From Candidatus Gastranaerophilales bacterium (lineage in GTDB: Bacteria > Cyanobacteriota > Vampirovibrionia > Gastranaerophilales > Gastranaerophilaceae): 64,000 nucleotides of DNA. Position numbers and translations under genes: made by a program. The notes under the pieces are model-generated. The model had not been told where the DNA came from, made no database searches, and saw only the letters and a list, made by a program, of their open reading frames with translations. Shown here piece after piece: positions 2,667 through 25,814 of the stretch (position 1 is its first letter; every line of letters begins with the position of its first letter). Location of the stretch: NCBI GenBank assembly GCA_944322675.1, contig CALUPO010000005.1:1-64000 (forward strand), given 5' to 3'.

Positions 2667-2708
2667 TATAAATATAAAGAAAGAGAAGTTTTACTGGTGG
2701 TTAAAATT

Positions 2709-4088
2709 ATGAATAAAAAACAAAAAAATGAACAAAAAGGTGCCTCTTTGTTTGCCCGCAGCACAAATCTTATTGATATTGACCCTATGGAAGAAATTTT
2801 TGCTCTCAATATGGGTGATTTTTTAATTGAACATTTAATATCAGATGAACTTGTCCAAAAAATGTCAAAACATGATAAGAAAAAAGACAAATCCATCGAT
2901 AATTTAAAAACACAACTTAACGAACTTATTTCGATATATTCAATAAGTAACACATTAAACATTCTAGGTTTGGAACAAAAAGAAGATTACCTTATTTATA
3001 ACTCAATAGCCTCAAGTTTAACAAAAATGCTTGATGTAAAAGTTTGCCATATACTTTTATCAAACAAACTTATGCACAATTTTAATCACGACCAAAATGA
3101 CCTGATTTTATGCGGAACATCAAATAACAGCTTATCTTCTCAATTGGATGAGAAAAAATCCGGTATAAAATTTGATGAAAGTAATATAAACATAAAAAAT
3201 ATTTTTGAAAAAAATGAAATATCAGTTTTAAATTTTGGTGATATTAAATTTGAATTTGATAAAGATCTTGAAATTGAAAATTTAAAATTTACAGCTTTAA
3301 TTCCCATGTACAACAACCTTGGGCATATAGGGATTATCATTTTACATAATGACAAAGTTATAGCACAACATTATTTAAATCTTGCAAATGTTTTAAGTGT
3401 GTTATTTGCGACATCTTTATATCTTCAAAAATTAATAAATGAAACTATTTTAATGATAAAAGATAAAAATTCAAATGAAATGGATCTAAAACATATGCGT
3501 GCAGAGTTGACATCTATGATTTGTGACTTAGGTCTTGCCCAGCAAAACTTTGTTGAAACACTTGCCAAAAGTGTCAATGAAAAAAGTGAATACAAAACAA
3601 ATCACGCTCAAAATGTTGCATTGTTGTCAAAAGAAATATGCAAAGAACTTGAATTAAATGAAAAAACAACAGACCTAATATACTATGCAGGGCTGCTTCA
3701 AAACATAGGTAAAATTATTTTACCGCAAAATATTTTTTCAAAATCAGGAAAACTCACAAAAGAAGAATGGCAAAAATTAAATGACCACACAAATTTTGGT
3801 GTCAATCTTCTTATGAATATTAACTTTCTGTCGGAAATTATTCCATATATTCACTATAATCGTGAACGTTACGATGGCGTTGATTCACAATACGGTCTTA
3901 AAGGCAATAGTATCCCTCTTGGATCACGTATAATTGCCGTTGCAGATGCCTATTGTGCTTTAACCTCTGATAGACCGCATAGAAAAAAAATGGATAATAT
4001 TGAAGCCTTAAATGTTATTAAAAGTGAAGCTGCCACAAAATGGGATCCTATTATTGTTGACACTTTGTATAAAATAAAAACAAGATAA
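2709..4088 (+). CDS. Degenerate HD-GYP domain protein (likely non-catalytic c-di-GMP sensor)
   Basis: Start chosen at ATG 2709 because GGTGG (2696-2700) is correctly spaced before it; a GTG at 2697 would overlap that site. The 459-aa protein has an N-terminal region, a GAF-like middle (about 80-240) and a C-terminal HD-GYP fold (about 295-455), recognised from the KSGKLTKEEW, DHTNFG, ADAYCALTSDRPHR blocks. HD-GYP proteins hydrolyse c-di-GMP. Here the HD metal-binding pair is QN (LLQNIGKI) and the usual HHExxDGxGYP is HYNRERYDGVDSQYG, so several metal ligands are lost. It is probably a binding or signalling protein, not an enzyme. It is read from a sigma-28 promoter and lies 6 bases before the hydrolase-like gene. 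Confidence 0.8.
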   Translation: MNKKQKNEQKGASLFARSTNLIDIDPMEEIFALNMGDFLIEHLISDELVQKMSKHDKKKDKSIDNLKTQLNELISIYSISNTLNILGLEQKEDYLIYNSIASSLTKMLDVKVCHILLSNKLMHNFNHDQNDLILCGTSNNSLSSQLDEKKSGIKFDESNINIKNIFEKNEISVLNFGDIKFEFDKDLEIENLKFTALIPMYNNLGHIGIIILHNDKVIAQHYLNLANVLSVLFATSLYLQKLINETILMIKDKNSNEMDLKHMRAELTSMICDLGLAQQNFVETLAKSVNEKSEYKTNHAQNVALLSKEICKELELNEKTTDLIYYAGLLQNIGKIILPQNIFSKSGKLTKEEWQKLNDHTNFGVNLLMNINFLSEIIPYIHYNRERYDGVDSQYGLKGNSIPLGSRIIAVADAYCALTSDRPHRKKMDNIEALNVIKSEAATKWDPIIVDTLYKIKTR

Positions 4089-4094
4089 AAATTT

Positions 4095-4886
4095 ATGAAA
4101 AAATTATTAATTTATATTTTAATAGTATTTCTTTGTTTTAATATATTATGTATAAATTCTTCAAATGCAAAAACAAAAAAAACATATAAACCACGAAACG
4201 TTATTCAAAAAGTTGAGGTTAATGCAAAGGATAACTTTATTATCCATGGAACTTTATACTATTATAAATCAAAACCTGCCATTAAACGGCCATTAGTTAT
4301 AATGTTGCATTCGCTTGGCGGATGTCAGAATGATTTTAAACCCTTAATAGATTTATTCATTTCATCAAATTATAATGTACTCACCATTGATATGCGTGGA
4401 CACGGTTTGAGCATTAAAAATTCAAATAATATAACAAGGACATGGCAATATTTCCCAAAATCAACATTTCTAAAATATCCCACTGATATTGCAGATTACT
4501 ACAAAACATTATTTGCAAAATACAATAAATATATAAACGAAAATAAATTAGTATTCATAGGCGGAGATATTGGTGCCAATACAGCCATTTTAACAGCCTA
4601 TGAATTAAAATTACAACCAAAAGCCTTTGTTCTTTTATCTCCAACACTTAATTTTAAAGGTCTTTATATACCAATAAAACTTACATCCCTTAAATCCAAT
4701 ATTATGGCAGTTTCAAGCCTAAATGACAGACATTCAATGAAGGGAATTCAAGATGTAAATAAATATGCACAAAATGAATATTTAATAAAATTATACCCAA
4801 AAGGCTCAAACGGTGTTTCTCTTATTTATTCAAACCCTGCTTTAAAAAATGACATTTTAAATTTTGTTAAATTACATACTAACTGA
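4095..4886 (+). CDS. Exported alpha/beta-hydrolase-fold protein, catalytic residues replaced
   Basis: A 263-aa protein with an N-terminal signal peptide (MKKLLIYILIVFL..., cleavage near the residues NAK at about 24-26). The fold is clear: VIMLHSLGG oxyanion region, TIDMRGHG strand-turn, and a nucleophile elbow at FIGGDIGAN. The elbow should be GxSxG; here Ser is Asp. The usual C-terminal catalytic His (in a GxHG-type loop) appears as GSNG. Asp nucleophiles exist in dehalogenases and epoxide hydrolases, but those keep the His, so this may be an inactive relative. It is second in the sigma-28-driven operon, and its 3' end overlaps the convergent ATPase gene by 15 bases. Confidence 0.65.
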   Translation: MKKLLIYILIVFLCFNILCINSSNAKTKKTYKPRNVIQKVEVNAKDNFIIHGTLYYYKSKPAIKRPLVIMLHSLGGCQNDFKPLIDLFISSNYNVLTIDMRGHGLSIKNSNNITRTWQYFPKSTFLKYPTDIADYYKTLFAKYNKYINENKLVFIGGDIGANTAILTAYELKLQPKAFVLLSPTLNFKGLYIPIKLTSLKSNIMAVSSLNDRHSMKGIQDVNKYAQNEYLIKLYPKGSNGVSLIYSNPALKNDILNFVKLHTN

Positions 4887-7799
4887 ATTATAAGTTTCAA
4901 GTCGTTCTTCAATATGAAATATTATGTTTTCTATATTTAATTTTTGTGCCGTTTTTAATGCCTTTTTATACAAATTGCATATGTTTTTTATAAGAATATT
5001 TTTATCATTTTCATCATTATTTAACATATTTTCATAAATTGTTGCATAAGTTATGGTAATTTGTAAATTTAAATACTTTAAATCCTCAATAGTTGCCAAT
5101 CTTAGTGCTTTTTCAAGATACATTTTGGCATTTGTATAATTTTGAGTAGAAATGTATATTTTTGCAATGAGTATTTTATAAAGTATTATAAAAATATAAT
5201 TATTTATTTTTGGATTTTTAGCAATTGATAATGCCTTTTTTGCTATTTCAAGTGATTTTTCACATTCATTTGTCTTAAGACTTAATTTTGCTATTAAATA
5301 CCAGCAAAATAAAGCACCAATTGCTATTTTTTCATCAACAAATATTCTTAACTGTTCAGCAATTATATCATAAGCTTTTTTATTATTATTTCTACTTGTT
5401 AATGTAACACCTAGAATTGCTTTAAACATATTTTTTGAAAATTTATCATTTGTATTATTTGCAAACATAGTATAAGAAAGCAAATGTTTGTTTATATATT
5501 CATAATCATCAATTAGAATCCTATTTATAATTAATACAAGATTCACATGGGATAATATTTTGGGGTCTATTTCTTTTTCATAAGCTGTTTTTGCTATTTC
5601 ATTTAATATTTTATCTGATTCTATAACATCCCCTGCAAAAGATAAATAAAAAGCATAAGCAACTTTTAATTTTGCTTCAAAATCATTATTTTTTATCTTA
5701 TTTAACTTTATTGTTTCAATTAAATCGTCATATTTATCCAAAAACCTGTGGCTGCCGCAAATTGATAGTGAATAAATAAGTTTTAAATTTGCATTTAACC
5801 AGGTGTCAAATAAAATATTTTTTGGTATTTTTTTATTTATACCGGGATTTAAAAGTGCATTTTCAACAGATGGTATAATTTCATTTTCAACAAGATGAAT
5901 TATTTCAGTGTAATTTCCAATATTAAATAAAGCTGTCAACTGTTTTGATTTGATAACTGCTTTTTCAAGTTCATATCCGTTTTCATTTATATTTTCTAAG
6001 ACAAGATTAATTGTTTCAATAAGCCCAAGGTAATTTTGACTATATTTACATGCCTCAACAAAATAAGAAGACAAATCAACAACTTTAACACAATCATTTT
6101 GTTTTTTAGCAATATCGATATTTTTTGATAAATACTTTATTGAATCCTCAGGAGATTTTTGATATAAAAGTTTTCCAAGTTCTATTTCACTTTCATTTAG
6201 GTACGTTGCTTTACCTTCAAAATTAAGATTTTTCACAAAATTTAAACACTGTTTTTGACATATTACATACTCATTTGTATCACCCAGAAAAGCACTTTGT
6301 TTTTTATTTATTTCCCAGTATTTAAATGCAAGATCATCACCGATATTTTGTGCAATAAGTGCTTTTAATACGTTATTTGACAAAACATATCTATTTAACA
6401 CCTTGAATATAACAGAATTATACAACTTATATTTCTTATCATTTTTAATATATTCAAAAATAATCTGCCAGATTGTAGAATTTTTAAACATATAATTTAT
6501 AGTGTCAATTTGTTTTATATATCCTTTACTCTTTAGAAAATTTATTATAGTTTTAAAATTTTTGCTATTTGTCTTGACACACTCATAAAGAATATTTATA
6601 TTGAAAAAATTGCCAAGTAATGATGCCATACATAATGCTTTTAATGATATTCTGGAAATATCATTTAAATTATTTAAACGTATTTTTAATATTTCAATAA
6701 TATTTTGAGGAAAAATAAAATTATTTATTTCATCGCTTATTTTACACATATTATTTTCATAAGTAAACATATTTAAATCTTTTAAATATAGAATAACTTC
6801 CTCAATATAAGCTTTTGAACCAAAGGATAATTCATAAATTCTATGTTTTATATGTTGCGGTATTATATTTTTTCCACCGCACAAAGCATCAATGATTTTA
6901 TAAGTTTCATTTTCACTTACACTATTTAGTGTCAAATTTTTATAATTGCTTTCGTTAAGATTTTTACAATATAAACATGCTTCAATATTTTTATGATTTT
7001 TATAAGTTATTATTATTTTGTTATTAAGACTTTCAATAAAATAATTATTATTTACAAATTCATTTAAAAATTCGTATGATGAACCATCAACAAGGTCAAA
7101 ATCGTCAATTAGAATAAGTGTTTGGGAACTTGAAGTTATTGTGGTAAAAATTTTTACAAAAATATTGTGAACTTTTTGCTTATTAATTAAAATATTTTCA
7201 AAGGTATCAGATTCTTGAGGATATAAAATGTTAATAAAAATATCAATTTCATCACTTTTTAAATCCAAAAAAATATCTTTAAAAAATTCAACATGCCGGT
7301 TTTTAAATTCATTTATATCACGTATAAAATAAGGGAAATTAAAATAATTTAAAATAAGCTTAACAAGAAGCCCGTAAGGTGCAATTTGTGTATATGAATC
7401 TAAATTTGCATAAAGTATATTATATTTTTTAAAAAGATTATGATAAATACTTTTACTTAAAGAACTTTTACCACTGCCTTCAATACCGCCTATGCCTATA
7501 ATTTTTGTGTTATTATCATTTAAATAATTAAAAACTTTTTGCTTAATTGTCAACTTAGGTCGGTTTATTGTGTTTGGAAGTCTTTGAGAGCATTTACGAC
7601 AGTTTTTTTGAACTGAAAAATTTGCAGCGTTACAATTTGGACAAAAAACAATAAGTTCTGTTTTGCAGTTTTGACAAAAACGGTTATTAATACGGTTCAA
7701 AGTATTGCATTTAGGACAATGATACTTAAGCAAAACACCGCATTGAGGGCATTTTTCGCAATTATCATCTACATTACTTTTGCATTTTGGACATATCAT
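4872..7799 (-). CDS. Zinc-ribbon / STAND-type ATPase with C-terminal helical repeats
   Basis: A 975-aa regulator-like protein. Residues 1-72 hold about three CxxC...CxxC zinc ribbons. A P-loop NTPase follows, with Walker A GGIEGSGKSS near 104-113 and Walker B LILIDDFD near 230. The second half (about 480-960) is alpha-helical and TPR-like. This order matches STAND/MalT-like NTPases, which assemble on binding a ligand and pass the signal through an attached effector. No cyclase, kinase or DNA-binding output domain is visible, so the output is unclear. It is a single gene, convergent with the hydrolase-like gene and divergent from the PilZ gene. Confidence 0.7.
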   Translation of the reverse strand: MICPKCKSNVDDNCEKCPQCGVLLKYHCPKCNTLNRINNRFCQNCKTELIVFCPNCNAANFSVQKNCRKCSQRLPNTINRPKLTIKQKVFNYLNDNNTKIIGIGGIEGSGKSSLSKSIYHNLFKKYNILYANLDSYTQIAPYGLLVKLILNYFNFPYFIRDINEFKNRHVEFFKDIFLDLKSDEIDIFINILYPQESDTFENILINKQKVHNIFVKIFTTITSSSQTLILIDDFDLVDGSSYEFLNEFVNNNYFIESLNNKIIITYKNHKNIEACLYCKNLNESNYKNLTLNSVSENETYKIIDALCGGKNIIPQHIKHRIYELSFGSKAYIEEVILYLKDLNMFTYENNMCKISDEINNFIFPQNIIEILKIRLNNLNDISRISLKALCMASLLGNFFNINILYECVKTNSKNFKTIINFLKSKGYIKQIDTINYMFKNSTIWQIIFEYIKNDKKYKLYNSVIFKVLNRYVLSNNVLKALIAQNIGDDLAFKYWEINKKQSAFLGDTNEYVICQKQCLNFVKNLNFEGKATYLNESEIELGKLLYQKSPEDSIKYLSKNIDIAKKQNDCVKVVDLSSYFVEACKYSQNYLGLIETINLVLENINENGYELEKAVIKSKQLTALFNIGNYTEIIHLVENEIIPSVENALLNPGINKKIPKNILFDTWLNANLKLIYSLSICGSHRFLDKYDDLIETIKLNKIKNNDFEAKLKVAYAFYLSFAGDVIESDKILNEIAKTAYEKEIDPKILSHVNLVLIINRILIDDYEYINKHLLSYTMFANNTNDKFSKNMFKAILGVTLTSRNNNKKAYDIIAEQLRIFVDEKIAIGALFCWYLIAKLSLKTNECEKSLEIAKKALSIAKNPKINNYIFIILYKILIAKIYISTQNYTNAKMYLEKALRLATIEDLKYLNLQITITYATIYENMLNNDENDKNILIKNICNLYKKALKTAQKLNIENIIFHIEERLETYNSVSM

Positions 7800-7870: not shown

Positions 7871-7897
7871 TAAAGTTTTGAAAAAAACGGCCGATAT
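7871..7897 (+). promoter_or_regulatory. Sigma-28 (FliA)-type promoter of the PilZ gene
   Basis: TAAAGTTT (7871-7878), exactly 11 bases, then GCCGATAT (7890-7897). The -35 is a perfect match to the sigma-28 consensus and the -10 has seven of eight bases. It ends 31 bases before the ATG, with the Shine-Dalgarno AAGGTGAG in between. Confidence 0.8.
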
Positions 7898-7928: not shown

Positions 7929-8429
7929 ATGAAAATTATTAAGAAATTTATATTGATAACATTAATATATATTCTAAGTGCATGCTTTTTTTCAAACAAT
8001 ATATCATTTAGCAGAACCCATTCAAGCTCATCTGTTTTGCCAACACAGGTGTTGCATGATAAAAACATAAGTCGCAGCAGTTCATCAAATCAGAAGGATT
8101 CCAAAAATCTTCCACCGGCATCACTAAATCGTCAAGCTTTGAGGTTTAAAGTGGATGAATCAATTGAATGGTATTCTTCATCACCTCATATTATTAAACT
8201 TATTGATATATCAACAAAAGGTCTTGGTGCTTTAACTGATGGCGAAATTCAAATTGATGAAATAGTTAGCTTTAAAATATTATATAAAGGACTCAATCTG
8301 ATAGTTGATGGAAAAACCGCAAGGTGTGATGAACAAACAAAAGTATGCGGGTTTGAATTTACAAATATGGACCCTGTCACTGCTAATTGTTTTTTGTATA
8401 TGAATCTTGTTATGCAAAATAAAAATTAA
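7929..8429 (+). CDS. PilZ-like domain protein with a lipoprotein-type signal
   Basis: A 166-aa protein. Residues 1-19 form a hydrophobic signal ending in a lipobox-like LSAC (16-19), then a Ser-rich linker. Residues about 65-160 look like PilZ, the c-di-GMP-binding domain: an RQALR (RxxxR) motif followed some 30 residues later by DISTKG (DxSxxG). PilZ acts in the cytoplasm, so an export signal is odd. Either the segment is an inner-membrane anchor with the domain inside, or a PilZ fold has been moved outside and reused. A sigma-28 promoter precedes it. There is no internal Met that would give a cytoplasmic version. Confidence 0.65.
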   Translation: MKIIKKFILITLIYILSACFFSNNISFSRTHSSSSVLPTQVLHDKNISRSSSSNQKDSKNLPPASLNRQALRFKVDESIEWYSSSPHIIKLIDISTKGLGALTDGEIQIDEIVSFKILYKGLNLIVDGKTARCDEQTKVCGFEFTNMDPVTANCFLYMNLVMQNKN

Positions 8430-8600: not shown

Positions 8601-10094
8601 ATGGATGATAATAAATTAAGTTTTAAATATAAAATTCGTAACTGTAGTGCTGATGATCCACAAGAACTTGAAAATCTACTTAATGAAATGAGTGATGAAG
8701 GTTGGGATATTTTCAATATAAATGAATATGAACATAATGGTGAATATGAATATAGTGTTATATTTATGAAAGAAAAATCAGATTATGATTATGAAGAAAA
8801 GATAACAGGCACCTTTAACAATGACAAAAATAATGATGTTTATGATTCACTTGGTATAAAAACACAACTTGATCGCCTTATGATAACAAATGAATCACCA
8901 TATCAAAGTTGTGTTGAAATTCAAAGTAAAATCAAAGAAGTTCGGGATAAAATAGCCTCGGTTAAATCACAAATTGACAATACAAATGACTATAGAAGAA
9001 ATGAATTAAATGATGAAATTTCACATTATTTAAATTTTCTTTATGAACTCAAACAAAAACTTAAAGATGTCGTTTCGCCTGATTATCTTGAATCCAAAAT
9101 AGGAGAAGAAAAAATTGTTATATCTTTGACAAGTGAACTTCTAAAACTTATTGACCCGGATTGTGAAGCCCCTTTACTTTCAAGCGTTGTTAACATAAGA
9201 AATAAATTTGTCGAAGAACTTGGATATATAATACCCAAAGTTAAGTTTGAAATAGATGATAATTTACCTTTGAATAGTTATAATATAAAAATACACAATG
9301 TTGTTGTTTTTCAAAGTGTGGTTTGTTGTGGTTCTTTGATGTTTTACCGGGATGAATTAAATCTTTTTAAGTATCCCGAAAATACAATAAAAGAAACTTG
9401 TCCTTTAACTTTAAAAAAAATTGTATGGATTGATGAGGCTAAAGCTAAAGATTTCTGGAAAAAAGGTAAAAAACCTGAAGATGTTATAGCTTCAAATTTA
9501 TACAAAGTTTGTCAAAAAAATATAGACTCCATTTTTGATTATAATGATGTAAATCGCTATTTGGAAAAAGTTGCATTAAAAAATTTCTTTCTTGTTGAAA
9601 ATATTATTCCAGAACAACTTCAAGTGGCTGAAGTTAAAAAAATATTGTCATCTTTAATTGAGGAAAATATAAGTATTCGGGATATTGTTTATATTATTGA
9701 AAAAATAAATGATATTATTGCTTTTAGCGGAAAAGATGACTTACTAAAAAAACTTCGTATAGCTTTAAAAGCCCAAATATCAGGACGTTATGCCAATGAA
9801 AATAATACAATATACGGTTTTAAACTTGGAGAAAAATTATGCCAAACTTTTGAATCATATATTGATGAAAATAGTAAAACTAGTCTTATAAGCAAACAAA
9901 AACTTAAAAATTTAACTCAAAAAATAAAAAAGACATCAGCATCACTTGAATTAAACCGGATTATTATTTTTGTTCCTATATCAATACGTGAGGTTTTTTA
10001 TAATATTATAAAACTTTATATTTACGATGTTGTTGTTCTTGCTTTTGAGGAAGTTCATGAAAACTTTAAAGCAGCTATTATTGCAGAATTATAA
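8601..10094 (+). CDS. Soluble FlhA C-terminal-domain-like protein (FHIPEP family) without the membrane part
   Basis: A 497-aa protein with no membrane helix. Residues 1-60 resemble a DUF4177-type domain (ELENLLNEMSDEGWDIF). A coiled-coil stretch covers about 110-160. From about 165 to the end it follows the cytoplasmic domain of FlhA/type III export gates block by block: LIDPDCEAPLLSSVVNIRNK, ELGYIIPKVKFEIDDNLPLN, SYNIKIHNVVV, VWIDEAKAKDF, VAEVKKILSSLIEENISIRD and KLRIALKAQISGRY. In FlhA this domain docks chaperone-substrate pairs during export. A stand-alone copy cannot form a gate; it may be a docking, adaptor or regulatory protein. It follows the sigma-28-driven PilZ gene, but has its own TATAAT-like promoter near 8561 after the terminator. 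Confidence 0.65.
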   Translation: MDDNKLSFKYKIRNCSADDPQELENLLNEMSDEGWDIFNINEYEHNGEYEYSVIFMKEKSDYDYEEKITGTFNNDKNNDVYDSLGIKTQLDRLMITNESPYQSCVEIQSKIKEVRDKIASVKSQIDNTNDYRRNELNDEISHYLNFLYELKQKLKDVVSPDYLESKIGEEKIVISLTSELLKLIDPDCEAPLLSSVVNIRNKFVEELGYIIPKVKFEIDDNLPLNSYNIKIHNVVVFQSVVCCGSLMFYRDELNLFKYPENTIKETCPLTLKKIVWIDEAKAKDFWKKGKKPEDVIASNLYKVCQKNIDSIFDYNDVNRYLEKVALKNFFLVENIIPEQLQVAEVKKILSSLIEENISIRDIVYIIEKINDIIAFSGKDDLLKKLRIALKAQISGRYANENNTIYGFKLGEKLCQTFESYIDENSKTSLISKQKLKNLTQKIKKTSASLELNRIIIFVPISIREVFYNIIKLYIYDVVVLAFEEVHENFKAAIIAEL

Positions 10095-10220
10095 AATTAT
10101 ATAAGGGACTTATATACAAGTTTACACAAAGTTTCTCCGTCCGGAGGACATTAAAATATTTTTAAATAATTCTTAAAAAAATTGTAAAACAAAGCTGCAT
10201 TAAAACCACCCTCACCCCAG

Positions 10221-10242
10221 CCCTCTCCCTTTAGGGAGAGGG
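10221..10242. repeat. G/C-rich palindrome of the CCCTCTCCCT / AGGGAGAGGG type
   Basis: Ten-base perfect arms with a TT loop, preceded by ACCCTCACCCCAGC. Sequences of this form are known as widespread small repetitive palindromes in many bacteria. It stands just before structured repeat copy B and at the start of the 10.1-11.5 kb gene-free region. Confidence 0.7.
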
Positions 10243-10318
10243 AGATAGGAAAAGATCTTTACCCCCCTAAAAAAAGAAAGCGGAAAATAAAAAAGTTTGA
10301 GAAAGAGGTCAACAATGC

Positions 10319-10500
10319 CAACCCATACGCAGGTTTGAGTAATAGTCACAGACGAAACATTGTCAAAGCCTCCTTTTGTTTGAGTGCACATTGTGCACGA
10401 GTTAAGGAGGCTCAAGTTGAGTCATGTGAATATACGAAAACCAAGTGGGTTGAAAGGTTTTGGTTACTTTTGACTGCAAAAGTAACCCCGTCCGGAGGAC
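10319..10500 (+). repeat. Structured intergenic repeat, copy B
   Basis: Same architecture as copy A with different stems. P1: CAACCCA (10319-10325) with TGGGTTG (10446-10452). P2: AGCCTCC (10367-10373) with GGAGGCT (10406-10412). Inner hairpin: GTGCAC-ATT-GTGCAC (10384-10398). P3: GGTTACTTTT (10462-10471) with AAAAGTAACC (10478-10487). P4: GTCCGGAGGAC (10490-10500). The joining segments CATACGCAG, TGTTTGAG and CGAGTTAA are constant between copies. P2 and P3 differ from copy A on both strands in a compensatory way. The minus-strand open frame across it is spurious. Confidence 0.75.
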
Positions 10501-10520
10501 ATTAAATTTCGTGTGGGGGG

Positions 10521-10549
10521 ATATGGGGGAGGCTTTGCCTCCCCCATAT
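10521..10549. repeat. Perfect palindrome ATATGGGGGAGGC with TTT loop
   Basis: Thirteen-base perfect arms (10521-10533 and 10537-10549) around TTT. An identical palindrome with an AAA loop is at 11208-11236. Each sits between a structured repeat (copies B and D) and a type-2 repeat. Confidence 0.9.
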
Positions 10550-10560
10550 ATTACTAATTC

Positions 10561-10691
10561 CCGCCGTAGGAAAGACGCCCGATTGAAATGAGGGCGGATA
10601 CCTCAGGCGGAAAAAAACCAAAGCTGACAGCAAGAAGTGCAATAGGTGAAGTTAAACAGAGTAACCCCGTCCGGAGGACGTTAAAATATTT
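10561..10691 (+). repeat. Second type of structured repeat, copy 1
   Basis: Nested pairs are visible: CCGCC (10561-10565) with GGCGG (10606-10610), AGG with CCT, and CGCCC (10576-10580) with GGGCG (10592-10596). After a linker it ends with the same GTCCGGAGGAC mini-hairpin (10669-10679) and TTAAAATATTT tail as the first repeat type. The second copy is at 11248-11375. Confidence 0.7.
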
Positions 10692-10738
10692 TTAAATAAT
10701 TTTTTGAAAAAAATTTTAAATATTTAAATAAAATTAAA

Positions 10739-10916
10739 GCCTTTCAGGCAGAGGCACTTTTTGTGGAAAAAGTGCCCAAAACCGTAACCCGACTTGGCAC
10801 TCACATTCTCACTAAACTCAACTCAAGCAGCCTTAACTCGTGCTTCACACTCAAACAGAAGGCTGCCTGTTGTTGTTTCGTTAAGTGATAATTGTTCGTG
10901 CCTGCGAATGGGTTAC
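10739..10916 (-). repeat. Structured intergenic repeat, copy C (reverse orientation)
   Basis: This is the most divergent copy and the best test of the structure. P1 is GTAACCC with GGGTTAC (plus-strand positions 784-790 and 910-916 of the 10-kb block), where copy A has GCAACCC/GGGTTGC. P2 is GCAGCC with GGCTGC, P3 is GGCACTTTTT with AAAAAGTGCC, and the P4 hairpin is GCCT-GAA-AGGC where the other copies have GTCC-GGA-GGAC. Every stem differs in sequence but stays paired. The constant joining segments are kept. Confidence 0.7.
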
Positions 10917-11008
10917 ATTTGTTGACTTTTTCCTACAATTGTTTAATAAGTCTTGAAAAAGACAAGTGTTGAAATAAGCTAAATGTTGTTGAGTATAATT
11001 AAAATATA

Positions 11009-11187
11009 CAACCCATACGCAGGTTTGAGTAATAGTCACAGACGAAACATTGTCAAAGCCTCCTTTTGTTTGAGTGCACATAGTGCACGAGTTAAGGAGG
11101 CTTAAGTTGAGTCGTGTGAATATACGAAAACCAAGTGGGTTGAGGTTTTGTGCAGCTTTTGCGTAAAAGCTGCCCCGTCCGGAGGAC
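11009..11187 (+). repeat. Structured intergenic repeat, copy D
   Basis: Starts 690 bases after copy B and is nearly identical to it through P1 and P2. Its P3 (GCAGCTTTT with AAAAGCTGC) is that of copy A. So the stems reassort between copies, as expected from recombination or gene conversion among many genomic copies. P4 GTCCGGAGGAC is at 11177-11187. Confidence 0.75.
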
Positions 11188-11207
11188 GTTAAATTTCACG
11201 TGGGGGG

Positions 11208-11236
11208 ATATGGGGGAGGCAAAGCCTCCCCCATAT
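11208..11236. repeat. Perfect palindrome ATATGGGGGAGGC with AAA loop
   Basis: Arms identical to those at 10521-10549, but the loop is AAA where the other has TTT. The unit therefore looks inverted relative to its partner. Confidence 0.9.
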
Positions 11237-11247
11237 ATTACTAATTC

Positions 11248-11375
11248 CCGCCGTAGGAAAGACGCCCGAATTAAATGAGGGCGGATACCTCAGGCGGAAA
11301 AAAACCAAAGCCGACAGCAAGAAGTGCAATAGGCGAAGTTAAACAGAGTAACCCCGTCCGGAGGACGTTAAAATA
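11248..11375 (+). repeat. Second type of structured repeat, copy 2
   Basis: CCGCC (11248-11252) pairs with GGCGG (11293-11297), with the same inner stems as copy 1. The few differences lie mostly in loops and linkers. It ends with GTCCGGAGGAC at 11356-11366. Confidence 0.7.
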
Positions 11376-11445
11376 TTTAATTTGTTGAAATTTAACAATT
11401 TTGACACCCTAACCCCAACCCTAACGCTTAAAATGGAGAGAGAGA

Positions 11446-16104: not shown

Positions 16105-17244
16105 ATGGATATTCTGATTATAGGGAATGGTTTTGACCTAGCACATGGTTTAAAAACTTCATATAAGGATTTTTTGGACTTTTGCAAGGAGCAAATGAAA
16201 GCATCCAATCCGGTAACATATTTTGATTATAAACGGTGTCTAAAAACTAACCTTTGGATGAAACATTTTATAGAAAGACAAAAGCAACCTGGAGATACTT
16301 GGATAGACCTAGAAAATGAAATTCTCAATATTGTAAAAATTATAAATAAGCATCCTACAGCTACAAATAGCGGAACTGTATCTTTATTTTGTCCGCAAGT
16401 ATTGACATGTAATTTATCTGAGTTATCTTTTTCTTTCAATCAATTTAAGGATAAGTATTTCAGACGACCAAATAATATTAAATGCAAAGCAACAAATAAT
16501 TATGAAATTTTATCTCCATCTAACAATAATTTATATGAAGTATACTTTGAAAAACCTCGATACTTTATTAATTTTTTATATGACCAACTAAGAGAATTTA
16601 CAAAGGCTTTTGAACAATATCTAAGCAATGAGATTATGACTAAATTAGTTAGAGATGATAAATATATACTAACTTTACCAACAAGCAATACTAGATTATG
16701 TGTTTTAAGTTTTAATTATACTGATACATGTTTTAAACTGTATGACCACAGCAGAAATCCTAATACTGAATATAGTATTGAAACGATATTCATACATGGC
16801 AAAGTTCAAAATAGTAATGACTGCGGACTTGTACTTGGAACAAAGACTTTTAAAAGTTCTGATGATTATGCAGCTATTTCTCCAGATTTCAACATATTCA
16901 AAAAACACTATCAACGACATAAATACGGAACAATTGAGTCATATCAAGATTTGTTGAAAAAACTAATAAACCAAGAACAGAAAATTAAACCAGTTTTTCA
17001 TATTATCGGGCATTCGTTAGAAGAAACAGACCATAAAATATTAAGGCACATATTAACAGCAAATAAAAATGCTACTATAAAAATTTACTATCATAGTGAA
17101 GACGCACAAGAAAAAATGATGCGTAATATTGATGATATTATTGGTGAAGAAGAAGTAATGACACGAGTTCAGTTTATAGACCAACATGATACAAAAAGAG
17201 GAATCCTCAGACCTGTAAATAATGAAGTTTTAACTTTATCTTAA
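16105..17244 (+). CDS. AbiH-family abortive-infection protein
   Basis: A 379-aa protein that begins with the AbiH signature MDILIIGNGFDLAHGLKTSY, a Rossmann-like nucleotide-binding start. Later it has VLSFNYTDTCFKLY, TIFIHGKV and HIIGHSLEETDHKIL, the conserved C-terminal blocks of the family (PF14253). AbiH was described as a lactococcal phage-resistance gene whose mechanism is poorly known. Start at ATG 16105, nine bases after AGGG. It is the first intact gene of island 1 and precedes the type I restriction locus, as expected in a defence island. Confidence 0.85.
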   Translation: MDILIIGNGFDLAHGLKTSYKDFLDFCKEQMKASNPVTYFDYKRCLKTNLWMKHFIERQKQPGDTWIDLENEILNIVKIINKHPTATNSGTVSLFCPQVLTCNLSELSFSFNQFKDKYFRRPNNIKCKATNNYEILSPSNNNLYEVYFEKPRYFINFLYDQLREFTKAFEQYLSNEIMTKLVRDDKYILTLPTSNTRLCVLSFNYTDTCFKLYDHSRNPNTEYSIETIFIHGKVQNSNDCGLVLGTKTFKSSDDYAAISPDFNIFKKHYQRHKYGTIESYQDLLKKLINQEQKIKPVFHIIGHSLEETDHKILRHILTANKNATIKIYYHSEDAQEKMMRNIDDIIGEEEVMTRVQFIDQHDTKRGILRPVNNEVLTLS

Positions 17245-17397
17245 TATTTATTTTCATAATATATAGCTACATTGTTAAAGAGGTTGTTTTTATTAATGTT
17301 AGCTGCGTTTGATGCATATATGTGAATATTAGAATTTTTACTGCAAATACCATAAACTGCATTTTTATAGTAAAATACAACAAAGGAGAATTCTACT

Positions 17398-18855
17398 ATG
17401 GCAACTATTCTAGAGCAAAAATCACAGATTGATAAACTATGGGAAACATTTTGGTCTAACGGGATATCAAACCCCCTAACCGTGATAGAACAAATTTCAT
17501 ATCTCCTTTTTATCAAAGAGCTTGATGAAAAACATACTCTGGAAGAAAGAAAGTCTCTAAAGTTTAAAAAGCCTATTGAGCAACCAATATTTAAAGATGA
17601 TACAGATTCTCAAATAATGCGTTGGTCGAGGTTTAAAGACTTGAAACCTAGTGAGATGTTTGATGTTGTCCAAAATAAAGTCTTTCCTTTTATTAAGACT
17701 TTGGGTGGTGATAAGTTTGCTCAATATATGCAAAATGCGGTATTTATGATACCAACTCCCGGATTATTGGCTACTGCCGTAGATATGATTTCTAACTTAG
17801 AGATGAAAGATATTGATACTAAAGGGGATTTGTATGAATACCTTTTGTCTAAAATAGCTCAAGCAGGTGTAAACGGTCAATTCAGAACCCCAAGGCATAT
17901 TGGTAAAATGATGGTGGAATTGGCTGATATTAAACCGGATGATATTATTTGCGACCCGGCATGCGGTACGGCAGGCTTTTTAGTTTGTGCAACTCTATAC
18001 CTTAGAGAAAAATATCCTGAAGCATTTATGGATGCAAAGTTTAACAAACACTTTAGCGAAAATATGTTTTATGGTTACGATTTTGATTATTCTATGTTGC
18101 GTATAGCCTCAATGAATATGATGACACACGGACACAAAAACCCTAATATAGAATATCAAGATTCATTATCTGAAGATGTTTCAAGTTTAGCTGACTTTTG
18201 TACTTGTGTTATAGCTAACCCTCCATTTAAAGGTTCACTTAATGAAGATACTATCGCTAAAAATATAGTATCAGCCGTTAAAACTACAAAAACAGAGCTT
18301 CTGTTTTTAGCCTTGATGATTAGAATACTAAAATCAGGCGGTAGAGCCTGCGTCATAGTTCCTGATGGGGTACTGTTTGGAACGTCAAATGCTCATTTAT
18401 CCATAAGAAAAAAACTTATTGATGAACAACAACTGCAAGCGGTAATTTCTATGCCTTCAGGTGTTTTTAAACCCTATGCAGGAGTGTCAACAGCAATTTT
18501 AATATTCACTAAGACAAATTCAGGCGGTACAGATAAAGTCTGGTTCTATGATATGCAAAACTATGGCTTTACACTAAACGATAACCGCACACCAATAGAT
18601 GAAAATGATATCCCTGATATTATTAAAACCTACAAAAACAGATTTAATGAAGATAATACAGATAAAAAAGCTAAACACTTCTTTGTGGATGTAGATGAGA
18701 TTAGAAAGAATAACTACGACCTAAGTATCAACAAGTACAAAGAAGTAGAATATGAACAAGTCCAATACGACTCACCAAAAACAATTTTAGCTGAGATACA
18801 AGCACTTGAAACCGAAGTCCAACAAGGCTTGGCTGAATTGGAGGCTATGCTGTAG
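17398..18855 (+). CDS. hsdM: Type I restriction-modification DNA methyltransferase subunit
   Basis: A 485-aa HsdM. It has the N-terminal helical HsdM_N region, the SAM-binding motif DPACGTAGFL (about 190-200) and the N6-adenine catalytic motif NPPF (about 275). With HsdS it methylates the recognition sequence; with HsdR it forms the restriction complex. A strong AAAGGAG Shine-Dalgarno precedes the ATG. The stop codon shares a base with the GTG start of hsdS, so the two are translationally coupled. Confidence 0.95.
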   Translation: MATILEQKSQIDKLWETFWSNGISNPLTVIEQISYLLFIKELDEKHTLEERKSLKFKKPIEQPIFKDDTDSQIMRWSRFKDLKPSEMFDVVQNKVFPFIKTLGGDKFAQYMQNAVFMIPTPGLLATAVDMISNLEMKDIDTKGDLYEYLLSKIAQAGVNGQFRTPRHIGKMMVELADIKPDDIICDPACGTAGFLVCATLYLREKYPEAFMDAKFNKHFSENMFYGYDFDYSMLRIASMNMMTHGHKNPNIEYQDSLSEDVSSLADFCTCVIANPPFKGSLNEDTIAKNIVSAVKTTKTELLFLALMIRILKSGGRACVIVPDGVLFGTSNAHLSIRKKLIDEQQLQAVISMPSGVFKPYAGVSTAILIFTKTNSGGTDKVWFYDMQNYGFTLNDNRTPIDENDIPDIIKTYKNRFNEDNTDKKAKHFFVDVDEIRKNNYDLSINKYKEVEYEQVQYDSPKTILAEIQALETEVQQGLAELEAML

Positions 18856-19967
18856 TGGTAGAATTTATAAAGTTAGGTTCTTTGGTAGATATTAGAACAG
18901 GTAAGTTGAATGCAAATGCAGCCAATGAGAATGGGTGTTATCCATTTTTTACATGTTCTGTTGAACCTTTAACGATAAATACCTACGCTTATGATTGCGA
19001 GAGTGTTTTGATTGCTGGTAATGGGGACTTAAATATTAAATATTACAATGGTAAATTTAATGCTTATCAAAGAACATATATTATTGAATCAAAAGATAAA
19101 GCCATATTAAGTGTGAGATTTTTGTATTATTTTTTATGTGAATATATTGATACATTAAGGAATAATTCTATCGGTGGGGTAATAAAATATATTAAGTTAA
19201 GTGATTTAACAGATATTAATTTCCCATTAATACCAATTAAAGAGCAGCAACGTATAGTAAAGATATTAGATAAGGCAGAAGAGATACGCACAAAGAAAAA
19301 GCTTGCAAACGAAAAGCTGGATGAATTCCTAAAATCAACTTTCATCGACATGTTCGGCGACCCTGTTACTAATCCAAAAGACTTCCCAACTCAAAAATTA
19401 AATGATATTGCTACATTAAAAAATGGTATTAACTTTTTAAAGGGGGATAGTGGATTCAAAGTTAAATGTCTAGGTGTATCAAATTTTAAAGATAATAATT
19501 TTATAGTTGATAGTACTAATTTCAATGTAGTAGAGGTTTCTAATAAACCAAGTGAAGATTATTATCTAAAGAAAAATGATATAGTTTTTGTTAGGTCTAA
19601 TGGTAGTAAAGAATTAGTCGGTAGAACTGTACTAATTAAAACCGAAGAAAAAATAGTATTTAGTGGTTTTTGTATAAGATGTAGATTAACTAGCAATATG
19701 AATCCAATTTATTTATTAATGTTATTAAAAACAGAATCTATGAAAAATGCTTTTAGTCATGACGGTCATGGTTGTAATATTAAAAGTTTAAATCAACAAA
19801 TGCTGGGTAATTTAGATATTATTATTTCACCACTAGAACTTCAAAACCAATTTGCCCAAATAGTCCAAAAAGTCGAAGCTCAAAAGGAAAAGAACCAAAA
19901 AGTAATCGAACAGATGGACAACCTCTTTAACTCGCTTATGCAACAAGCGTTTAAAGGAGAATTATAA
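18855..19967 (+). CDS. hsdS: Type I restriction-modification specificity subunit
   Basis: A 370-aa HsdS starting with GTG at the last base of the hsdM stop. It has two target-recognition domains (about 1-130 and 175-330), each followed by a conserved helical spacer: KEQQRIVKILDKAEEIRTKK in the middle and LQNQFAQIVQKVEAQKEKNQ at the end. The target sequence cannot be deduced. Its stop TAA overlaps the ATG of the next gene. Confidence 0.9.
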   Translation: MVEFIKLGSLVDIRTGKLNANAANENGCYPFFTCSVEPLTINTYAYDCESVLIAGNGDLNIKYYNGKFNAYQRTYIIESKDKAILSVRFLYYFLCEYIDTLRNNSIGGVIKYIKLSDLTDINFPLIPIKEQQRIVKILDKAEEIRTKKKLANEKLDEFLKSTFIDMFGDPVTNPKDFPTQKLNDIATLKNGINFLKGDSGFKVKCLGVSNFKDNNFIVDSTNFNVVEVSNKPSEDYYLKKNDIVFVRSNGSKELVGRTVLIKTEEKIVFSGFCIRCRLTSNMNPIYLLMLLKTESMKNAFSHDGHGCNIKSLNQQMLGNLDIIISPLELQNQFAQIVQKVEAQKEKNQKVIEQMDNLFNSLMQQAFKGEL

Positions 19968-20509
19968 TGCCAGAAATAAACTTTGTTGAATTAACCAAAC
20001 AAATAGGATTTTTGATTATTGGTTATTGGGCAAGAGATATATACGAGTGGACGAAGAATGAATGTAAACCTAAGAAGTATATTTGGAGACCAGAAAAACC
20101 ATTAATAAATCCAAATGCCAATAAAGACATAAGTAAACATCCTAAAGACTACAGAATTGACTTCAAATCTAATTACATAGAGAATATAGGGAATTGTGTT
20201 CAAGGTGAAGAGGCATTATTGCAACACTTGATAAAGTATATAAACACTCCAAAAGGCAAATATAAGATATATGAAGGTACATCTTATGGAAATGAGCAGG
20301 CACAAACTATATTTACTGAAAAGAACCTTGTAGAATTCCAAAGACAATGTGAAAGAATGATGATCAAAATTCTCAAAGAAGAGAATTATGTAGATTATAT
20401 AGAAGAAGTTTATAGCGTTGAACGGAAAAGAGACGAACTTCATATAGCTCTTAAGTTATGCGGTAATGGGAATTCTTCACTTTGGATTGTCCCAAAACTT
20501 AAGAAATAA
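19967..20509 (+). CDS. Hypothetical protein embedded in the hsd operon (180 aa)
   Basis: It starts inside the hsdS stop (TAATG), so it is co-translated with the restriction genes. The N-terminus is hydrophobic and aromatic (IGFLIIGYWARDIYEW), possibly a weak membrane or interface helix. The rest is charged and soluble. I recognise no domain. Its position between hsdS and hsdR suggests an accessory role in the locus, or simple passenger status. Confidence 0.6.
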   Translation: MPEINFVELTKQIGFLIIGYWARDIYEWTKNECKPKKYIWRPEKPLINPNANKDISKHPKDYRIDFKSNYIENIGNCVQGEEALLQHLIKYINTPKGKYKIYEGTSYGNEQAQTIFTEKNLVEFQRQCERMMIKILKEENYVDYIEEVYSVERKRDELHIALKLCGNGNSSLWIVPKLKK

Positions 20510-20540
20510 TGTTTCAATATAATATTTCGAGGTAATAAGT

Positions 20541-20582
20541 ATGGTCAATTTTGAATTTCCAATGTCAAAATCAAGTATTTGA
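20541..20582 (+). other. Possible 13-codon reading frame before the HEPN gene
   Basis: ATG at 20541 with a GAGG-like site just before it encodes MVNFEFPMSKSSI, then TGA. Its start resembles the first residues of HsdR (MSNFEF), so it may be a remnant of an ancestral hsdR start rather than a leader peptide. Confidence 0.2.
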
Positions 20583-20596
20583 AGGAAAACTATAAT

Positions 20597-21343
20597 ATGC
20601 CAAAATTCACTACCCAATTAAATGCAGACAAAATATTAAGCAAATGGATAGAAGGATATAAAACAAATCCTGACAAATATAAAAAACACTTAGCATTTGT
20701 TGCATATCAGGCTTGGTGTAATATGGTGCCAAAATCAGAAGAGTGTAAGAAATATCCACTTACTTTTTTGTGCGATTTTGATGTTAATAGTACTATAGAA
20801 TGGCTAGTTAATGGAAAAAGAGAATCCAAAAACAAACATAGGTTTAATTTTTTAGGGACAATATTAACAGAAGCAAAGAAATACTATGACACAAAAGAAT
20901 ATTTTTTAAGTCTAGTATTGTATGCAACATATATAGAGCATTGGTTTAATGATTTAATAAATTGTCTAGCGATAACTAAAAATTTAGATGATGGCACAAC
21001 TGAAAAACTGATTAAGATGTTTACAAACGATAGTAGGCTTGATTTATTATGGTCGCTCTTTGATTTGCCTGAAATTGATGAAAAGGTTAAAAAAGACATA
21101 AAAATGATATTTGATACGCGTAACTATTTTATTCACTATAAATGGAAACCAAAAAACTACGAAGAAGGAATTGCACAAATAGAAAAATCCATGGTTTACA
21201 CCGAAAAAGCTCAAGAGATAATTGAATATTTGAATGAGTATGTAAAAGAGAATATTTACAATAAAGAATTCTTGGAGAAATTCTTTGCTAATTTAATCTA
21301 TAAACAATCAGGAATAACTATAGAAGAAGAATATAAGAAATAA
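20597..21343 (+). CDS. HEPN-like domain protein (candidate RNase or toxin)
   Basis: A 248-aa protein; start at ATG 20597 because AAGGA lies ten bases before it. The second half contains a helical segment (SLVLYATYIEHWFNDLINCL) and then TRNYFIHYK. The latter is the Rx4H motif (Arg-Asn-Tyr-Phe-Ile-His) of HEPN nucleases, found in many toxins and phage-defence proteins that cut RNA. There is no obvious partner antitoxin such as MNT next to it. It sits between hsdS and hsdR. Confidence 0.5.
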   Translation: MPKFTTQLNADKILSKWIEGYKTNPDKYKKHLAFVAYQAWCNMVPKSEECKKYPLTFLCDFDVNSTIEWLVNGKRESKNKHRFNFLGTILTEAKKYYDTKEYFLSLVLYATYIEHWFNDLINCLAITKNLDDGTTEKLIKMFTNDSRLDLLWSLFDLPEIDEKVKKDIKMIFDTRNYFIHYKWKPKNYEEGIAQIEKSMVYTEKAQEIIEYLNEYVKENIYNKEFLEKFFANLIYKQSGITIEEEYKK

Positions 21344-21426
21344 AAAGAAATAAAAGTATTGCAAAATATTTAAAAGTATTGTAAAATGAATATGGGCTGG
21401 TATCTTTGTATATCTCGGTCCACCAC

Positions 21427-21449
21427 GGCAGGTGTTATACCTGCCTTTT
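21427..21449 (+). terminator. Hairpin with short T-run before the DUF3800 gene
   Basis: GGCAGGT-GTTAT-ACCTGCC followed by TTTT. It would separate the HEPN gene from the next one. Confidence 0.55.
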
Positions 21450-21472
21450 AAATTGACAGAAGGGAATGATAG

Positions 21473-22189
21473 TTGAGAGAACTAAGTATATTCATTGATG
21501 AATCAGGAGATTTTGGCGATTATCAAGAACACTGTCCTTTTTATATTATATCTTTTATTTTCCACAACCAAGAATGTTCTATTACAGAACAGGTTGAAAA
21601 ATTAGACCAGTTTTTGGAGTATAACAATCTAAAGAGACATAATATACATACTGCACCTTTAATAAGAAAAGAAAAAAGTTACAAAGATACAGATATTTCT
21701 TTAAGAAGTAAACTTTTTAGGCAGTTATTTAATTTTGTTAGAAGCGTTGATATTTCGTATAAAACTATTGTTGTTGATAAAAGAACGTATAAGAATCAAA
21801 TGGATATAGTTAAAATGATTACAAAAGAGTTGTCATCATTCATTAGAAATAATTATTCTTTTTTTCAACAATTTGAAAATATCATAGTTTATTATGACAA
21901 CGGTCAGGTTCAATTAAATAAAACTTTAGTTGCTATCTTTGGTGCAATGTTTGGTGAAAATATTGATTTTAGAGGTATAGAACCTAATAATTTCAAACTG
22001 TTTCAAGCAGCAGATTTGATATGCACTTTAGAACTAATAAAGAATAAACTATCATGTGGCAAAAGCCTTACGGCTTCTGAGCAAAAGTTTTTTGGCTCCG
22101 CTTCTAAATTAAGAAAAAATTATCTTAAATTTTTTGAAGCTATAGAATTTGGCAGAAAGATAAGACAAGATTTATCGCTTAAATCTTAA
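21473..22189 (+). CDS. DUF3800 domain protein
   Basis: A 238-aa protein beginning with LSIFIDESGDFGDY, the acidic start characteristic of DUF3800, a family with an RNase H-like fold often found in phage-defence islands. Further conserved positions appear in IVYYDNGQ and FQAADLICTLE. Together they offer acidic residues for metal binding, but activity is unproven. The start is TTG with AAGGG about nine bases upstream; no in-frame ATG fits. Confidence 0.75.
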   Translation: MRELSIFIDESGDFGDYQEHCPFYIISFIFHNQECSITEQVEKLDQFLEYNNLKRHNIHTAPLIRKEKSYKDTDISLRSKLFRQLFNFVRSVDISYKTIVVDKRTYKNQMDIVKMITKELSSFIRNNYSFFQQFENIIVYYDNGQVQLNKTLVAIFGAMFGENIDFRGIEPNNFKLFQAADLICTLELIKNKLSCGKSLTASEQKFFGSASKLRKNYLKFFEAIEFGRKIRQDLSLKS

Positions 22190-22225
22190 GTTGTGTTATA
22201 CTTATCTGTAAGATAAGGTGCTGGT

Positions 22226-25200
22226 ATGAGCAATTTTGAATTCCTAAAAAATGAATGGTTTGACATATATGAATTAGCTAAAGAAGCTGAAGAGTTTGTT
22301 TATGCAAAGCCTGTATTTGCGTGTCTTACCAATAGAAAAGCTCTGGAAAAAGCTGTTATTTGGATGTACAAAAATGACAGTGATTTGATTTTGCCATACG
22401 ATACTTCCTTAAGTTCTTTAATTTATGAGCAGAGCTTTAAGAACTTGCTACCACCACCTTTATTGCCAAAGGTTAATGTAGTTAAAAAGCTGGGAAATAT
22501 TGCAGCACATGATATAGGTAAATTAACCTCTAAAGATGCTCTACAATCGTCTTATGAATTGTTTTATTTCTTGTATTGGTTATATAGGGTATATTCAGTT
22601 GCTGAGCCTGTTATCGGTTTGCAATTTGATGCTTCAAAAGTTCCAACACAAACCAAAGAACAACAAGAGATAGAACGATTAAAAAAGATTATTGAAGCTC
22701 GTGAACAAGAAGAGATAGCGGAAAAAGACTTAATAAAAGAAAACCAAGAGTTACTGGAGAAAATCCAAAAAATTAAAGAACAGAACAAAGTTCACCAGCC
22801 TAGTAATTACAACTATAATGAAGCTCAAACAAGAAAGTATTTGATTGATGTTCTATTAAAAGAAGTAGGTTGGGATATAACAAAACCTGATGCAATAGAA
22901 TATGAAGTATCTGGCATGCCAAAGACATACAGCTCTTCATCTGGTATAGGTTATGTTGATTACGTTTTATGGGGTGATGATGGTAAACCTTTAGGACTTG
23001 TTGAAGCTAAAAGAACAACAAAAGATGCCAAAATAGGAAGAGAACAGGCTGAACTATATGCGAATTGTTTAGAAAAAAAGTTTGGACAAAGACCAATAAT
23101 TTTCTATTCTAATGGTTATAAACACTATATTTGGGATGACAAAAATTATCCTCCTAGAGAAGTTGCTGGGTTTTATTCAAAAGAAGCATTAGAAAGACTA
23201 ATAACAAGACGTAACATAAAAAAAGACCTTATTAATGTTGATATAAATAAGACTATTACAGAAAGACCATACCAAGAAAGAGTTATCAAAAGTGTATGTG
23301 AAAACTTTCAAAACAAAAGTAGAAAGTCATTGCTTGTTATGGCAACAGGTACTGGTAAAACAAGAGTTGCAATTTCTATTGTAGATATTTTAACCAGATA
23401 TAATTGGGCAAAGAGAATTTTGTTTTTAGCAGACAGAACTTCTTTGGTAGTACAAGCTCAAAGGAATTTTGCCAAGCATTTACCAGAACTAAATCCTGTT
23501 GATATAACAAAGTCCAATAATAATGATTATACAAATAGAGTTGTTATATCTACATATCAAACAATGATGAATTTGATAGATGCCAAAAAGGGAGATAATA
23601 AAATATTTTCCGCTGGGCATTTTGACTTGATAATTATTGATGAAGCTCATAGGAGTGTATATAAGAAATTTGGTGAAATATTTAATTATTTCGATGCAAT
23701 GATGTTGGGTTTAACTGCAACTCCAAGAGATGATATAGATAAAGATACTTATAAAGTGTTTGAATTGGAAAAAGGTGTACCAACTGATTATTATGACTAT
23801 GATACCGCTATCAAAGAAGGGTATTTAGTACCATTTGAAAGTTTTAACACTGGAACAAAATTCCTGACACAAGGTATAAAGTATTATGATTTATCACCTG
23901 ATGAAAAGGAAGAATATGAACTGAAGTTTTATGATGAAGAAACTGATACGCTTCCTCCTATGATAAATGCCTCTGAATTAAACAAGTGGCTTTTTAATGT
24001 TGATACTGTTGATAAGATACTAGAATGTTTAATGACTAATGGTATTAAAGTTAATGGTGGCGATAAGTTAGGGAAAACTATAATATTTGCAGCAAATGAA
24101 CAACATGCAAGATTTATTGAAGAAAGATTTAACGCAAATTATAAGAAGTATAACAGTGAATTTGCTAGGGTTATAACTCATCAAACTAAATATTCACAGA
24201 ATTTAATAGACCAATTCTCAGACAAAGACAAAGAACCAACAATAGCTATTTCTGTTGATAAGTTAGATACTGGTATAGATGTTATCGAAGTAGTTAATTT
24301 GGTATTCTTTAAAGTTGTTAGGTCAAAAACTAAATTTCATCAAATGATAGGTAGAGGAACAAGATTATGTCCTAACTTATTTGGCTTAAATAAAAATAAG
24401 GAAAAATTCTATATATTTGATGCTTGTGGAAATTTCGAATATTTTGATATGAATCCTGATGGTGCAAAGACATCCGATACTATGCCTATTTCTCAAAGAG
24501 TATTCTTAAAGAAATTAGAATTGGCAGAAAAAATAAAGGATGATGATGAGATATTAAGACTGTTATCTAAAAAAATTAAAGATGACTTATGTTCTACTGT
24601 TAAAACAATGGATAGAGATAATTTCATTGTAAGAAGACAATTAGAAACCGTAGAAAGTTTTTCTGCTAGAGAACGATGGGATAATATAGATGATATAGAC
24701 TTCATTAACATAGAAAAAAAGTTATCTAAATTGCCAAATAACAATGAAGATGAAGAAGAAAATTGTAAATATTTTGATTTAATGATTTTAAATTCACAGT
24801 TGGCAATATATGGTAAAGATGCGAAAAAACTTGAAAAATACCAAAAAGACTTGATTAAAATAGCAAGCAAGCTAGAGCAAAAATCTTCAATTCCTATGAT
24901 AAACAAAGAATTAGAAATTATACAGGAAATTCAGACTGATGACTTTTGGTGCAATGTAACAATTTCAGACTTGGAAAATGTAAGAATAAGACTCAGAGAC
25001 TTAATTAAATTTCTAGATAAAGAACAAAGAGAAATGGTTGTAACTAATTTTGAGGATGAAAGTATAACAAATATTCAACCCCAAACAGTACCAAATCCAG
25101 TACCAAGTATTGATATGGAAAGATATGAAAAGAAAGTAAAAGCATTTTTACTAGAGCATAAAGATGTGTTAGCTTTGTATAAATTGCAACATAATAAAAA

Positions 25201-25788: not shown

Positions 25789-25814
25789 ATGCATTTTAAG
25801 GAGCAATGTTAGAT

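Follow-up and report, generated by a model that had tools for sequence, protein, structure and literature searches.

Positions 8601 to 10,094 of the window, as we call the whole stretch of 64,000 nucleotides that was analysed, hold a forward-strand gene whose product, of 497 residues, carries the cytoplasmic domain of the flagellar export-gate protein FlhA (FlhA-C) and none of its membrane domain. The Pfam family FHIPEP (PF00771) aligns with residues 161-489 over columns 322-656 of its 657 (E 1.9e-49; 169 bits, cut-off 29), and the protein has no match to the profile before column 322, the part that covers the membrane gate of about 320 residues. The NCBIfam models of FlhA and SctV match only from columns 334 and 346 onward, and their whole-protein cut-offs are missed (153 against 772 bits for FlhA, 91 against 692 bits for SctV). 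Hydropathy reveals no membrane segment in the protein or in 107 relatives; the highest 19-residue value is 1.59 in the protein itself and at most 2.02 in the relatives, as against at least 2.7 in the full-length proteins FlhA1 and FlhA2 described below.

A profile of 19 relatives, searched against the PDB, matched the C-domains of FlhA and SctV, the best match being B. subtilis FlhA (3mix, E 9e-48). In the AlphaFold2 model (45 relatives, mean pLDDT 80), residues 168-497 (9102-10,091, forward strand) align with FlhA-C in Foldseek with E 1e-21, and comparison of the model with FlhA-C structures by VIA gave Z 30 over 326 residues at an rmsd of 3.7, with all four subdomains (D1, D2, D3 and D4) matched. 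An earlier note on this DNA had proposed that the C-terminal 330 or so residues follow the FlhA/FHIPEP cytoplasmic domain and that the export-gate membrane domain is absent, and the profile and structural comparisons bear out both points. The product of the gene is a third, soluble FlhA paralogue in which the FlhA-C fold is complete and the export-gate membrane domain is missing. The protein shares with FlhA/SctV (PF00771) the D1-D4 arrangement and the way in which conserved residues are placed in D3; it differs in having neither membrane gate nor GYXLI hinge nor hydrophobic dimple and in adding an N-terminal domain and a coiled coil.

The N-terminal module

The first domain, residues 8-58 (8622-8774, forward strand), has a predicted beta-alpha-beta-beta order in the AlphaFold2 model that agrees with DUF4177 (PF13783). 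The match to that family scores 17.3 bits, under the Pfam gathering threshold of 25; 33 of 45 members match it weakly, with a best E of 0.0018 among the 45. DUF4177 would seem the best-fitting name for the domain, although it falls below the Pfam cut-off, and the likeness consists of the order of secondary structure and the weak matches; what sets the domain apart is its fusion to a coiled coil and FlhA-C. A variable linker of low confidence follows (residues 59-99, 8775-8897, forward strand; pLDDT mostly below 50 over residues 60-95), and then a coiled-coil hairpin (residues 100-157, 8898-9071, forward strand) with modelled helices at residues 100-125 and 130-157. The hairpin is also marked by conservation, with P100, C104, Q108, K110, I111, K122 and N137 near-invariant. 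In describing a soluble, free-standing FlhA cytoplasmic domain whose N-terminal part is new, the earlier note was right.

The stalk proteins FliJ and SctO, which are antiparallel two-helix coiled coils associated with FlhA-C, offer a likeness to this hairpin. The stand-alone hairpin, however, has only 58 residues and is covalently part of the protein, and no match to the FliJ profile was seen; the families reported for the module do not include FliJ, in a search whose HMMER filters drop weak matches. Foldseek gave no PDB match below 0.001 for the module model, those listed being coiled coils or weak alpha-beta folds, and fold searches returned generic coiled coils at Z about 10, below the noise level of helical bundles. 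No other protein in 96 genomes from the other orders of the class carries the module, nor was it found in phage records, and the rest of the phylum gave nothing convincing (one marginal hit to the coiled coil, E 5e-4). As far as sampled, it occurs in the stand-alone architecture only.

Conservation and distribution

The Gastranaerophilales are gut-dwelling, non-photosynthetic relatives of cyanobacteria, and the named relatives of the protein come mostly from metagenome-assembled genomes of Candidatus Gastranaerophilales. Among 373 genomes of the order, each at least 85% complete, the stand-alone architecture is present and intact in 366, a count made by manual reading of match rows in which presence meant a match of E 1e-140 or better, too strong for FlhA. 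The open frames of the relatives run to about 490 residues. The seven genomes without the gene include drafts, 85-98% complete, and only three of the 366 that have it lack any FlhA match. Over 20 independent close pairs of stand-alone genes the median dN/dS is 0.044, so the gene is under purifying selection. A tree built from 47 C-domains places the stand-alone proteins together in a single clade (support 100/100) on a long stem of 1.5. They are a conserved family specific to the Gastranaerophilales, and no fragment. The FHIPEP family itself is known; what is new is a conserved soluble member with its own N-terminal module beside two full-length paralogues. The open-access full-text literature searched, on free-standing FlhA-C domains and on type III secretion in Melainabacteria, contained no description of this protein.

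Copy number varies in places. Genome G275 has the full-length stand-alone gene twice on one contig, the copies being some 27 kb apart (C62:37548-38999 and C62:65548-67014), a pair that could reflect duplication or binning (4% contamination), and several others, including G024, G025, G030 and G039, have four or five matches each to the stand-alone profile, which may include additional FlhA proteins or split copies.

Two full-length FlhA proteins and two export gene sets

A search of the source genome (2.1 Mb in 41 contigs) for full-length FlhA and other export genes, the check that the earlier note had in mind, found two FlhAs. FlhA1, on contig C2, is grouped with fliP, fliR, flhB and related genes; FlhA2, on contig C7, is isolated among unrelated genes; and the stand-alone gene lies on contig C5. 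The same genome contains a flgB-flgC-transglycosylase-flgF-flgG-fliE-fliF-x-fliH set, followed by motB, fliL and fliM. In other members of the order, flhA2 belongs to a cluster that reads flgF-flgG-flgB-flgC-transglycosylase-fliE-fliF-x-x-fliH-flhA2-fliI, and the FlhA2 set further includes SPOA-fliO-fliP-fliQ-fliR and flhB2. One flagellin-less genome adds FliJ-like, FliK-like and short FlgE-like genes, although some gene names in the FlhA2 set come from manual sequence reading and are marginal (FliJ-like at E 1.6e-4, FliK-like below the cut-off). Genome G065 has a conventional flgB-flgC-fliE-fliF-fliG-fliH-fliI cluster separate from the FlhA2 cluster, so that the two sets are distinct there; this is the one genome in which two separate basal-body sets were read directly.

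The two sets have different distributions. Flagellin, scored as absent when there was no Pfam Flagellin_N match, is found in 47 of 82 genomes of the order and absent from 35. Two FliP proteins occur in 44 of the 47 flagellin-positive genomes and in none of the 35 flagellin-negative ones, and FliS is likewise missing from all 35. FlhA1 tracks flagellin, FliS and the conventional flagellar gene set, including the second FliP. FlhA2, on the other hand, is found in nearly all of the 82, the exceptions being incomplete or split, and is part of another, divergent gene set for flagellar-type export and the basal body, which is nearly order-wide and extends to flagellin-less members. The stand-alone gene is present in 46 of the 47 flagellin-positive genomes and in 32 of the 35 without flagellin and FliS, and so does not follow flagellin, FlhA1 or FliS.

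The partial flagellar sets of the Gastranaerophilales have been interpreted as flagellum loss (PMC4040986, PMC5877343). The present distribution suggests that what the flagellin-less members keep is a second, coherent gene set, retained without detectable flagellin where incomplete sets had been read as loss. Genes of this set (FlhA2, FlhB2, a FliP-type protein of 213 residues, FliO, a SPOA protein, FliF, FliE and FlgB/C/F/G) were read at L054 6687-17377, L148 7302-11454, L228 850-10454, L225 9143-11774 and L223 2726-10926. Most of the other orders sampled in the class, where they have any FlhA, carry the set too, flagellin-less genomes included.

Likeness to FlhA2 and the altered chaperone site

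To which of the two full-length proteins is the stand-alone protein closer? Scored with the stand-alone profile, 28 FlhA2 C-domains reach 220-280 bits and 30 FlhA1 C-domains 131-162 bits, with no overlap (medians 266 against 146 bits). Given the long stem in the tree, this closeness to FlhA2 rests on the profile scores and not on the branching point. FlhA2 of the same genomes (full-length, as at L035) is the closest protein by this measure, and positions like P351 and M354 in the linker are common to both. Identity between the stand-alone protein and FlhA2 is highest in D3 (37%) and D1 (32%) and only 19% in each of D2 and D4, whereas FlhA1 and FlhA2 are 32-35% identical in D1, D3 and D4. In the stand-alone family and likewise in FlhA2, though not in FlhA1, conservation is highest in D3 (about residues 312-390, 9534-9770, forward strand); its entropy in the stand-alone family is 1.03, against 1.51-2.01 elsewhere, while D4 is only 37% identical within the family. 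FlhA2 evolves much more slowly, with D3 identity of 88% between FlhA2 proteins as against 65%. The D1-D3 and D3-D3 contacts are those that build the nonameric FlhA/SctV ring (PMC7911332, PMC8223533).

The chaperone site has been remodelled. In Salmonella FlhA, export chaperones bind a hydrophobic dimple formed by D456, F459, L461 and T490, and the GYXLI hinge is needed (PMC10965912). Alignment of 107 stand-alone proteins, 30 FlhA1 and 28 FlhA2, which also defined the boundaries of D2 (about residues 246-291, 9336-9473, forward strand), shows that the acidic residue at D456 is kept in 96% of the stand-alone family, but that F459 is replaced by T or S in 95%, L461 is mostly K or R, and T490 has become R in 62% and K in 12%. 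At the hinge (368-372), positions 368-370 read S (97%), E (86%) and E (99%). FlhA1 retains E/F/L/T at the dimple and G-Y at the hinge. FlhA2, unlike the stand-alone protein, keeps the gate, has mostly D/Y/T at the dimple and retains G368, which is invariant (100%) in both full-length groups. The stand-alone D2 carries instead a conserved, family-specific W-W-G pattern (W276..W286..G289).

Genomic setting

Ahead of the stand-alone gene, 171 bp away on the same strand, lies a PilZ-domain gene (7929-8429; PF07238, E 4.9e-8), and a similar gene precedes the stand-alone gene of a sister genome at a gap of about 60 bp; co-transcription of the pair is possible. Before the PilZ gene is a sigma-28-like promoter, TAAAGTTT-N11-GCCGATA, at 7871-7896 of the forward strand (one exact match, with 0.00 expected in shuffles); it is only degenerate in the sister genome, so the call is tentative. 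A second sigma-28-like site (TAAA-N16-GCCGATA, 2639-2665) stands some 30 bp ahead of the HD-domain gene 2697-4088.

No single neighbourhood is conserved across the 99 distinct loci of the gene. Upstream, three same-strand contexts are the most common, none with export genes: an uncharacterised 181-aa gene (30 loci), a RicT-like PSP1 gene after bamA-skp (about 22) and a uridine-phosphorylase-like gene (19), the names bamA, skp, RicT and uridine-phosphorylase-like being manual readings. In none of the loci read is an export gene of the FlhA2 set the immediate neighbour of the stand-alone gene. Two family f7 genomes (G065 and G070) have it directly upstream of a conventional fliJ-fliK-flgD-flgE operon, and in three further loci flagellin genes lie within about 5 kb. 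The cues point toward flagellar regulation and yet away from a fixed operon, which weakens any confident assignment. In a family f7 locus, L042 5453-11573, the gene sits between rplT and fliJ-fliK-flgD-flgE.

Possible roles of the stand-alone protein

In the accepted picture FlhA/SctV is a membrane protein, and its cytoplasmic ring contains a single type of subunit. Where would a soluble FlhA-C fit? The earlier note had suggested chaperone docking or a decoy, in which the free domain would bind flagellar chaperone-substrate pairs and hold or titrate them. The fold does retain the D1-D2 cleft, as well as the acidic equivalent of D456, but of the three classic dimple positions F459 and T490 have changed (with L461 mostly basic as well) and the hinge reads S-E-E; together with the primacy of D3 in conservation, these changes leave the idea without support, and a dock or decoy of the usual kind appears unlikely from the residues involved. 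Retention in genomes that lack both flagellin and FliS goes further, in that a flagellin-chaperone decoy cannot be the conserved role of the protein. Taken over all its versions, the chaperone explanation is improbable. Only marginally less so is a flagellum-specific factor that works with FlhA1 or the hook operon. The two family f7 loci, the nearby flagellin genes and the sigma-28-like promoter ahead of the PilZ gene all speak for such a factor, and yet the gene is intact in 32 of 35 genomes without flagellin and the second FliP, and its profile likeness is to FlhA2 and not to FlhA1.

The membrane half, present in every other FlhA, is missing here, which might indicate the remains of a third FlhA gene in decay. 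That reading is scarcely credible; conservation in 366 of 373 genomes, the low dN/dS and a dedicated, conserved N-terminal module rule out chance or decay. In E. coli, genes of the fhiA/lfhA type are flhA genes that lack a part, stand beside an intact flhA and are remnants of a lost flagellar system. The stand-alone gene is likewise a partial flhA accompanied by intact ones, but differs in being conserved and in having an N-terminal module of its own. Perhaps, instead, the domain has been recruited to a job outside export, for instance scaffolding through the N-terminal module. The neighbours belong mostly to other pathways, and both the D2 and D4 faces have changed, D4 being poorly conserved even within the family; however, it is the ring-contact subdomain D3 that is best conserved and FlhA2-like, and the gene is kept beside the FlhA2 gate across the order. 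We consider such recruitment rather unlikely, though far from negligible.

The reading that we favour, with confidence somewhat short of even, places the stand-alone protein at the FlhA2 gate, where it would be a soluble subunit of the ring or an adaptor and bring docking faces of its own. We infer that its conserved D3 and D1 surfaces could pack with the FlhA2 cytoplasmic ring or stack under it, while the N-terminal module and the remodelled D2 and D4 faces would offer a docking surface different from that of FlhA2, making the protein a soluble sorting or regulatory subunit of the ring. Its order-wide retention alongside the FlhA2 gate, a presence independent of flagellin, the profile likeness to FlhA2 over FlhA1 and the conservation of D3, the ring-contact subdomain, are all consistent with this assignment. 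Several points weigh against it. The gene is not adjacent to those of the FlhA2 set, its only flagellar neighbourhood (family f7) being a conventional operon; D3 conservation also serves folding; and FlhA2 occurs in other orders of the class without the stand-alone protein, which therefore is not needed for every FlhA2 gate. Within the order, moreover, both genes are near-universal, so that their association has almost no contrast. The "new role" that the earlier note offered as its alternative fits better than docking or decoy, and would most probably lie with the FlhA2 export system.

A broader speculation, which we regard as doubtful, is that the FlhA2 set forms a filament-less second export machine, whose hetero-oligomeric or double-layered ring would combine FlhA2-C with the soluble FlhA-C paralogue and so gain a second docking specificity; the "partial flagellar gene sets" of the order would then be that machine rather than the products of decay. 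The literature searched contained no example of an export gate that has a soluble FlhA-C subunit. That a soluble paralogue is conserved throughout an order suggests that accessory subunits of the ring type can be added to type III export gates, and, if the proposal is true, the second set may be a route by which unknown proteins leave these uncultured gut bacteria.

Other features of the window

Upstream of the PilZ gene, on the opposite strand at 4872-7799, is the gene of a 975-aa protein with a double zinc ribbon, a weak AAA match and TPR; the sister locus L005 has a zinc-ribbon-like reading frame in the corresponding position. Downstream of the stand-alone gene, the non-coding stretch 10122-11398 holds imperfect direct repeats of 214 nt and 135 nt, about 690 bp apart and 94-98% identical, together with the motif ccgtccggagga. 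Farther along, positions 16105-26363 encode AbiH, the type I restriction-modification genes hsdM, hsdS and hsdR, and a short phage-integrase gene, likely a defence island.
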